From NCBI GenBank assembly GCA_009380005.1, contig WHSQ01000029.1, positions 1 to 38,792 of the forward strand: 38,792 bases of DNA, given 5' to 3'. Made by a program: the position numbers and the translations under genes. The DNA comes from Actinomycetota bacterium (GTDB lineage: Bacteria; Actinomycetota; CADDZG01; WHSQ01). Below the pieces are notes generated by a model. It saw nothing but the letters and a program-made list of their open reading frames with translations. It was not told the DNA's origin and did no database searches. The first letter of the stretch is position 1; each line of letters begins with the position of its first letter. Positions 12,307 through 13,809 of this stretch are shown here, in pieces.

Positions 12307-12467
12307 GAGACCTCCCCGATCGGTTCGAGTAGCTCGACGGGTGTGAAGTCCGCGCATGTCACGCACAGCAGGTAGGTTGCGGCGCCTCCGTGTGCGTTGG
12401 GTTCGCGTCCGCGGCGGGTGGCGGGTTCGGACCGGCAGACGGCGCAGGGTGTGCCGAGCGGGATCAC
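12303..12467 (-). CDS. Small zinc-ribbon protein
   Basis: A 54-residue protein with two Cys pairs, PCAVC (Cys8, Cys11) and CVTC (Cys35, Cys38), spaced as a zinc ribbon. The GTG start overlaps the methyltransferase stop. Its end overlaps the next gene. Possibly DNA- or protein-binding; unknown. Confidence 0.65.
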   Translation of the reverse strand: MIPLGTPCAVCRSEPATRRGREPNAHGGAATYLLCVTCADFTPVELLEPIGEVS

Positions 12468-13324
12468 GCGCCCACCTGCTTTCGATCGGCGGCGAGGATC
12501 AGCCGGCCGACGCGCTCGGCGACCTGCGGCACTACGGCGTTTCCGATGGCTCTAAGTCGGTCCACCCGGCCGGGAATCCCATTAGCCACTCGACCCACGT
12601 CGGGTTCAGTTGCCCACCAATTGCTGAGGGTTCCCTCGCCGCTATCGCGTTCTCGAGGTTCTGCGGTTCGCCGTCCGGGCGTCGCCATACCTTGAAGTTG
12701 CGGCTCTCGCCGTTCTGCGCCCGCGGCGTTGGCCACATCGTGCGAGCCGACACGGCCTCGACGAGGTTCCCGCCCTCGCGGCCCTTCCTTGGTGTCACCC
12801 GGCCGGCGTGGCTCCCATCCGTCGCCGCAGGGGTCGGCCACCGCGATGATGAATACCCGCTCACGGAGGTGCGGGGCTCCAACGCTGGCAGCTGATACGC
12901 AACGCCACTCCGTGTCATACCCGATCTCGGCCAGCTCGCTGAGTACGTCGCCCATTCCTCGAATAAGGAGCCCTGGCACGTTTTCCATGAGCGCGTAGCG
13001 GGGTCGTAGTTCGCGAATGACGTCGGCCATCGCGGGCCAGAGCCAGCGTTCGTCGTCTTGGGCGAGGCGGCGGCCGGCTTGGCTGACGGGCTGGCAGGGG
13101 AATCCTCCGGCGATGAGATCGACAGTTGGCCGGGTATCTCCCCCGTCTCGCCACCAAGCGACAGCTGTTCGTACGTCATCGTGGCGTGGTACCTCCGGCC
13201 AGTGTTTGGTGAGGACGGCTCGGCAGAACGGGTCTAGCTCGACCTGCCCGACGACAGTCATCCCGGCCCGTTCGAGGCCCAATTCCAGGCCGCCTATTCC
13301 CGAGAACAGCGAGAGCACGTTCAC
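12464..13324 (-). CDS. dcm: DNA (cytosine-5) methyltransferase
   Basis: A 286-residue C5-cytosine methyltransferase, probably protecting phage DNA from host restriction. Motif I is FSGIGGLELG; motif IV GGFPCQPVSQAG has the catalytic Cys77; motif VI is ENVPGLL (residues 114-120); motif VIII contains RERVFIIA (about residue 155); and motif X is AIGNAVVPQVAE near residue 262. The target-recognition region (170-235) is arginine/glycine-rich and less conserved. The GTG start overlaps the resolvase stop. A long second frame lies inside this gene (12532-13179). No partner restriction enzyme is seen. Confidence 0.93.
   Translation of the reverse strand: MNVLSLFSGIGGLELGLERAGMTVVGQVELDPFCRAVLTKHWPEVPRHDDVRTAVAWWRDGGDTRPTVDLIAGGFPCQPVSQAGRRLAQDDERWLWPAMADVIRELRPRYALMENVPGLLIRGMGDVLSELAEIGYDTEWRCVSAASVGAPHLRERVFIIAVADPCGDGWEPRRPGDTKEGPRGREPRRGRVGSHDVANAAGAERREPQLQGMATPGRRTAEPRERDSGEGTLSNWWATEPDVGRVANGIPGRVDRLRAIGNAVVPQVAERVGRLILAADRKQVGA
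12532..13179 (-). CDS. Overprinted frame inside dcm, protein-like
   Basis: A 215-codon ATG frame lying wholly within dcm, in the +1 frame on the same strand. Its product has features that look selected: YDPATRSWKTCQGSLFEEW, WPRSGMTRSGVAYQLP, two WPTP motifs (residues about 113 and 149) and a final LNPTWVEWLMGFPAGWTDLE. I recall this motif order from proteins deposited from other phages and metagenomes. GGAGG lies 12 bases before the ATG. Either it is a real overlapping gene, or the family in databases is itself an unexpressed mirror of conserved dcm codons. Confidence 0.45.
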   Translation of the reverse strand: MTYEQLSLGGETGEIPGQLSISSPEDSPASPSAKPAAASPKTTNAGSGPRWPTSFANYDPATRSWKTCQGSLFEEWATYSASWPRSGMTRSGVAYQLPALEPRTSVSGYSSSRWPTPAATDGSHAGRVTPRKGREGGNLVEAVSARTMWPTPRAQNGESRNFKVWRRPDGEPQNLENAIAAREPSAIGGQLNPTWVEWLMGFPAGWTDLEPSETP

Positions 13325-13809
13325 GCGACCACCGCCTCGGCTGTGTCGGCGACGTAGACGGCCACTGCGTACGCAGCCCACACGTCGGCGCGGAAGCCGT
13401 AGAACCATCCGGGCGCGGCCTTGGTTCCCTTGCCGCTGTTCCGTACGCCCGAAGCGAACCGATCGACGAGAGCCTGCCGAATGTTGGTGTCCTTCGCTTT
13501 CGCCGAGCCGCAGTGGTGGAGTTTGATGTCTCGGCGGTATACCAACTGCGGTCGGGCGGTCGGGATGCAATGATCGTTGTGCTGAAGGAATCGACCGACC
13601 CACACACAGGTCTCGAAGACGTCCTTTCCGACGGCCATTCCGTAGCTCGCGACCATCTCTATCGCGAGGTGGCGGAACGAGTTCTCCTCGATAACATCGA
13701 GCACCCGTTCGTTGGCGTCTTTGCCGAATGCGAGGGGCCGTCGAGTGTCCGCGTCGATGACGCACCAGCCGGACTCGGTGTTGCCGGGGTCTATGGCGAG
13801 CAGGCTCAT
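13321..13809 (-). CDS. RuvC-like Holliday junction resolvase
   Basis: A 162-residue RNase H-fold nuclease. The opening MSLLAIDPGNTESGW gives Asp7; LAIEMVASYG gives Glu51; and a C-terminal FRADVWAAYAVA gives Asp142, so the acidic metal site looks complete. KAKDTNIRQALVDRF is also typical of the family. It would resolve branched DNA before packaging. ATGA overlap at the start, GTGA overlap with dcm at the end. Confidence 0.85.
   Translation of the reverse strand: MSLLAIDPGNTESGWCVIDADTRRPLAFGKDANERVLDVIEENSFRHLAIEMVASYGMAVGKDVFETCVWVGRFLQHNDHCIPTARPQLVYRRDIKLHHCGSAKAKDTNIRQALVDRFASGVRNSGKGTKAAPGWFYGFRADVWAAYAVAVYVADTAEAVVA

Follow-up and report, generated by a model that had tools for sequence, protein, structure and literature searches.

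Does the cytosine methyltransferase (dcm) gene of this phage region carry a second gene within its own coding sequence, and if so, what might the second product do? The window, by which we mean the whole stretch of 38,792 nucleotides analysed here, comes from a 3.8-Mb draft genome and is a temperate-phage region with minus-strand capsid, portal, terminase, integrase and ERF recombinase genes. The original prediction drew attention to an ATG-started frame of 215 codons on the same strand as dcm and +1 to it, and left two readings, either a long-standing overlap of two genes or a database family created by codon conservation in dcm; it proposed no function for the product. The frame is exactly as claimed, and every motif quoted for its product is present (Table 1). 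We refer to the products of the dcm and +1 frames as alpha and beta, respectively. The gene just upstream of dcm (13321-13809, minus strand) encodes a product (MSLLAIDPGNTESGWCVID...) that we take to resemble a RuvC-type resolvase, and a Pfam search with this product gave no match. The stop codon of this gene and the GTG start of dcm overlap, an arrangement that suggests translational coupling.

Table 1. Components of the nested gene pair and their positions in the window.
Feature	Coordinates	Strand	Description	Basis or remarks
Alpha (dcm frame)	12464-13324	minus	286 aa, GTG start, VNVLSLFSGIGG...GNAVVPQ; C5-methyltransferase motifs I-VIII and X	Pfam PF00145, E=5.9e-41, residues 2-162; confident AlphaFold core; M.HhaI structural match, E=1.9e-15
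Beta (+1 frame of dcm)	12532-13179	minus	215 aa, ATG start, entirely within alpha	phrog_1008, E=6.2e-35; stop depletion; similarity above the dcm-forced level
GGAGG, candidate beta ribosome-binding site	13192-13196	minus	12 nt upstream of ATG	
Alpha motif IV, catalytic PCQ	13091-13099	minus	P76, C77 and Q78	Invariant in alignment
Beta N-domain (FANYDPATRSWKT...WPRSGMTRSGVAYQLP...)	12844-13017	minus	Residues 55-112	Overlaps alpha motifs V-VIII
Beta WPTP repeats, proposed target-recognition region	12616-12840	minus	Residues 114-188	
Beta motif IX (GQLNPTWVEWLMGFPAGWT)	12559-12615	minus	Residues 189-207	HHalign, 97.4% to single-chain motif IX
Alpha residues 171-250	12575-12814	minus	Predicted disordered, without recognition domain	Apparent shadow of beta
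Alpha motif X core (GNAV)	12533-12544	minus	Begins confident C-terminal helix	G261 and N262 invariant

For the window gene alone, the +1 frame stays open in 0.275% of synonymous dcm resamplings, with 5.2 stops expected, the codon resampling taking no account of codon-pair effects. Eighty viral loci were gathered by the dcm protein only, so that there was no selection on the alternative frame, and beta lies in the +1 frame of all 80. When these relatives were clustered below 80% identity, the +1 frame was open in each of the 74 clusters (2.1 expected) and the +2 frame in none; frequent stops in relatives, which the original prediction had named as evidence against a gene, are thus not seen. Because the first region had been set by the alternative-frame match, the stop test was repeated on a neutral region defined by dcm landmarks only, from after PCQ to before motif X. 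Across 73 loci the +1 frame of this region contains 4 stops versus 298 expected, whereas the +2 control has 683 versus 660 expected, and the +1 frame of 24 ordinary chromosomal dcm genes shows no depletion (101 stops, 107 expected). The open frame is therefore not explained by high GC or by dcm codon content.

Similarity was examined with a beta profile built from nine alternative-frame proteins, test loci being left out. Real alternative frames score a mean of 152.5 bits against 48.0 for synonymous shuffles (74 loci), and the real frame outscores all 40 shuffles at 73 of the 74. With its own sequence out of the profile, the window product scores 193.5 bits; its 500 shuffles average 47.5 and reach at most 85.9. 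Of the beta similarity, no more than roughly one third appears to be forced by dcm codons, so the suspicion that the resemblance was dcm-forced holds for that part (48 of 152 bits) and fails for the remainder. All 118 alternative proteins of relatives, together with window beta, match phrog_1008, which on this evidence is a real protein family and not an artefact.

Substitution rates were calculated at the four-fold sites of each frame over eight regions, using up to 24 disjoint closer pairs. Taking these regions in order (motifs I-III, outside the overlap; around PCQ; IV to VI; around ENV; around VIII; VIII to IX; motif IX; past the alternative stop), divergence is 0.295, 0.394, 0.239, 0.127, 0.195, 0.096, 0.052 and 0.206 in the dcm frame, and 0.060, 0.050, 0.148, 0.111, 0.111, 0.336, 0.201 and 0.120 in the alternative frame; some contigs carry two locus ids in the pair sets, and the values are therefore rates and not exact tests. 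A wider set of 97 pairs agrees, with dcm four-fold divergence of 0.082 at motif IX versus 0.473 in motifs I-III. These patterns indicate that the dcm frame codes up to motif VIII, that the V-VIII interval is shared, and that the alternative frame is then the main coding frame as far as motif IX. The codon-position pattern likewise flips in the C-terminal third, where constraint falls on the alternative frame. Checking both frames, as the original prediction advised, thus reveals constraint beyond that of dcm. It also shows that the string EPDVGRVANGIPGRVDR, which had been read as dcm motif IX, was assigned to the wrong frame; it is apparently in large part a shadow of the alternative LNPTWVEWLMGFPAGWTDL.

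By every sequence test the 215-codon frame behaves as a protein-coding gene, the second frame being stop-free and conserved beyond what the first forces. Could the conservation and the phrog_1008 family still be artefacts of conserved dcm codons, with no gene in the alternative frame? The dcm-forced third of the profile score is what such an explanation would require, as is the beta stretch opposite motif IV, which has no constraint of its own. However, the stop depletion with its clean controls, the scores above all shuffles and the switch of periodicity to the alternative frame exclude it, and beta domains also occur in frame within single-chain enzymes (see below); we consider an artefact to have virtually no chance of being correct. 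Of the two readings originally offered, the gene pair is thus strongly supported and the artefact is rejected.

What, then, does each product hold? In alpha, the PCQ and EN of motifs I-VIII are invariant, as is the GN of motif X. Alignments of alpha profiles with M.HhaI and with single-chain relatives end near motif VIII, and the best structural match, M.HhaI, spans 169 columns. The AlphaFold model is mostly above 90 over residues 1-160 and confident again at the motif X helix; at about residues 171-250 the pLDDT is about 40-63 per ten-residue block, mostly below 50 and near 45 between about residues 180 and 250, and no folded recognition domain was found in this model between motifs VIII and X. 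Motif IX is carried by beta and not by the alpha chain, and the same appears to hold for the recognition region. The large chain thus has the catalytic motifs and a second, small one has motif IX, as in a two-polypeptide methyltransferase.

Beta is laid out as an N-domain (SWKT...WPRSGMTRSG..YQLP), followed by xPTP repeats, of which most relatives have one to four, and then LNPxWVEWLMGFPxGWT. When 118 nested proteins were combined into a profile (HMMER), about 33 single-chain phage enzymes matched it over the repeats and motif IX, these parts sharing a chain with the catalytic domain and lying in frame between motifs VIII and X; the matches that carry the repeats into single-chain enzymes have modest scores, and the confident HHalign link is to motif IX only. 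In a C5-methyltransferase the stretch between VIII and X is by position the target-recognition region plus motif IX, and we infer that the WPTP repeats themselves read DNA. The DNA encoding these repeats is read by alpha as a predicted disordered linker. The N-domain matches the +1 proteins of actinophages (HHalign, 99.8%, the alignment starting at residue 55 and extending into the repeats), and gave no match in Pfam or PDB families; a PDB sequence search with the beta profile gave no match at E<=1. Modelled alone, beta gives a poor structure (pLDDT 62.5), with which a structure search returned no useful match; this is expected of a partner-dependent protein, yet proves nothing. A ribosome-binding site with an alternative-frame start is present in 47 of 74 relatives versus 11.6 expected, providing indirect support for beta translation. 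In the window the 12 nt between GGAGG and the ATG are a long spacing, so the exact beta start is uncertain.

Three architectures were recognised. In the one represented by the window, alpha has motifs I-VIII and X, and a nested beta has the N-domain, repeats and motif IX; it occurs in 80 of the 80 loci checked, from phages of many hosts, plasmids and many phyla, including an archaeal MAG. In split-type loci (phages Eesa, Maverick, WalterMcMickey, Wildflower, PrincessTrina and Jumbo) frame 0 ends after motif VIII and a +1 gene encodes the N-domain, repeats, IX and X. In the single-chain type (Seagreen, MelBins, prophiT46-2 and PFR1) motifs I-VIII, repeats, IX and X are all in frame 0, and the +1 frame still codes for the N-domain over motifs V-VIII. 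Counts of split against single-chain loci are approximate, and several single-chain enzymes that the pattern missed are among 12 actinophage loci first scored as split but lacking IX. In the split and single-chain types together, the +1 N-domain is present in 80 of 80 actinophage-type loci and scores above every shuffle in each. This constancy is our least expected result, and a recognition role alone does not explain the N-domain.

From these searches, the nested arrangement is present in hundreds of phage and prophage genes and is seldom annotated. In loci L001-L250, the best alternative matches are all located +1 to a dcm, which answers the original question of where homologues reside. As for homologues outside dcm, split-type genes run past the dcm frame, and one apparently stand-alone ORF was seen: on a Paenibacillus bovis plasmid, a nested pair is followed directly by another ORF (L261:2345-2812) that encodes WPTP and motif IX (VINPAWIECMMGFPEGW), has no dcm-like frame underlying it and may be a stand-alone beta-like recognition unit. 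Plasmid and E. coli searches gave further nested pairs, and EcoHK31I was not among their matches. Three E. coli prophage dcm genes (L374:2881-3627, L375:2978-3649 and L376:2931-3866) each contain a nested +1 frame for a more distantly related beta (GQLNPALSLWLMGFPPEW or a similar sequence); these betas are absent from the RefSeq table and may be convenient for bench tests. Two loci (L071 and L087) contain tandem dcm-like genes, each with its own +1 beta-like match, and in two others (L125 and L160) the catalytic and beta parts are fused or broken across frames, reflecting either real indels or assembly errors. Gordonia phage Hans has a LAGLIDADG endonuclease gene (L255:529-984) in an insert within dcm, the dcm frame being open throughout; an out-of-frame HNH insertion in phage ShiLan is comparable (PMC11855218).

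At the sequence level it is established that both frames are coding, which motifs each contains, and that the two always occur together in the sampled loci. The nested genes very probably specify one split cytosine-5 DNA methyltransferase with alpha and beta as its subunits, the two polypeptides being made by reading a single stretch of DNA in two frames. Alpha would supply the motif X helix and, with motifs I-VIII, the core for SAM binding and catalysis. Beta, presumably made by internal initiation inside the alpha message, would contribute its N-domain, the WPTP repeats as target-recognition region, and motif IX. The two would assemble, with beta providing the DNA-recognition lobe, and the complex would methylate a specific site on phage DNA, probably protecting it against host restriction.

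Two-polypeptide C5-methyltransferases have been described previously, and one of them, M.EcoHK31I, is also said to have its small ORF inside the large one, in another frame. M.EcoHK31I recognises YGGCCR (Lee, Kam and Shaw 1995, cited in PMC3404938), and is described in PMC3404938 as having motifs I-VIII and X on its large chain and only motif IX on its small chain, with the recognition domain predicted in alpha. As so described, its motif distribution is that of the window's alpha and beta. The recognition domain, by these accounts, differs in location, being predicted on the large subunit of M.EcoHK31I and apparently on the small one in the window, and M.EcoHK31I belongs to a restriction-modification system, whereas the gene of the window sits among phage genes. 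M.AquI (CYCGRG; cited in PMC3404938) is, from that description, like the window in having catalytic motifs I-VIII on one chain and the recognition region with IX on the other, and unlike it in that the window has motif X on alpha and beta wholly nested in alpha; M.AquI as presented there is approached most closely by the split type of actinophages, whose small chain carries both IX and X. Fragment complementation has been reported for split C5-methyltransferases (PMC3404938). The single-chain actinophage enzymes have the same order of I-VIII, xPTP repeats, EWMMGxPxGW motif IX and X, but with repeats, IX and X in the dcm frame, while the +1 frame keeps the N-domain protein with some repeats. 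Paenibacillus phage Shelly gp56 ('g55 internal gene') and phrog_1008 represent the same family, +1 nested in dcm, and their database labels are only 'DNA methyltransferase' or 'hypothetical protein', with no subunit role. None of the papers covered by our literature search describes this nested family in phages.

Programmed frameshifting would offer a different route to a complete enzyme, in which translation shifts out of the dcm frame beyond motif VIII, covers the repeats and IX in +1, and shifts back for X, producing one long methyltransferase. It gives the canonical order of VIII, recognition region, IX and X, like that of the single-chain relatives. However, two shifts are required, the N-domain over V-VIII would go unread yet is conserved, internal start signals are enriched, and split-type phages have two separately annotated genes; we therefore judge frameshifting to be highly unlikely. 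A further question is whether beta merely shares DNA with dcm and acts independently, for example as a DNA-binding regulator or counter-defence factor. The N-domain's lack of a Pfam or PDB family match is compatible with such a role, as is the persistence of its nested frame in loci that have recognition region, IX and X all in frame 0. Independence does not account for an alpha that is without a recognition domain, nor for the location of every best beta match among the first 250 loci in the +1 frame of a dcm, and split-type beta also has motif X, which is integral to the enzyme. We regard an independent beta as very unlikely, and retain the split methyltransferase as the best explanation. 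Somewhat more speculatively, and with rather less than even confidence, we suggest that the N-domain protein may be the obligatory partner of a clade of phage C5-methyltransferases, the overlap being an ancient, locked tie between partner and enzyme, with the repeats, IX and X shifting frames by indels.

As annotated, the 'dcm' genes of this class, which is common in phages and prophages, appear to be incomplete, with the part that should choose the site located in a usually unannotated overlapping frame. An annotated gene cloned alone would probably yield an inactive enzyme, and specificity predicted from the dcm frame would rest on shadow sequence. The locus also provides an unusually well replicated same-strand overlap, spanning many phyla and including natural variants that shift the same domains between frames. 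Beyond the known split enzymes, it adds the scale of the arrangement, a recognition region apparently on beta, and an N-domain that persists beside single-chain enzymes.
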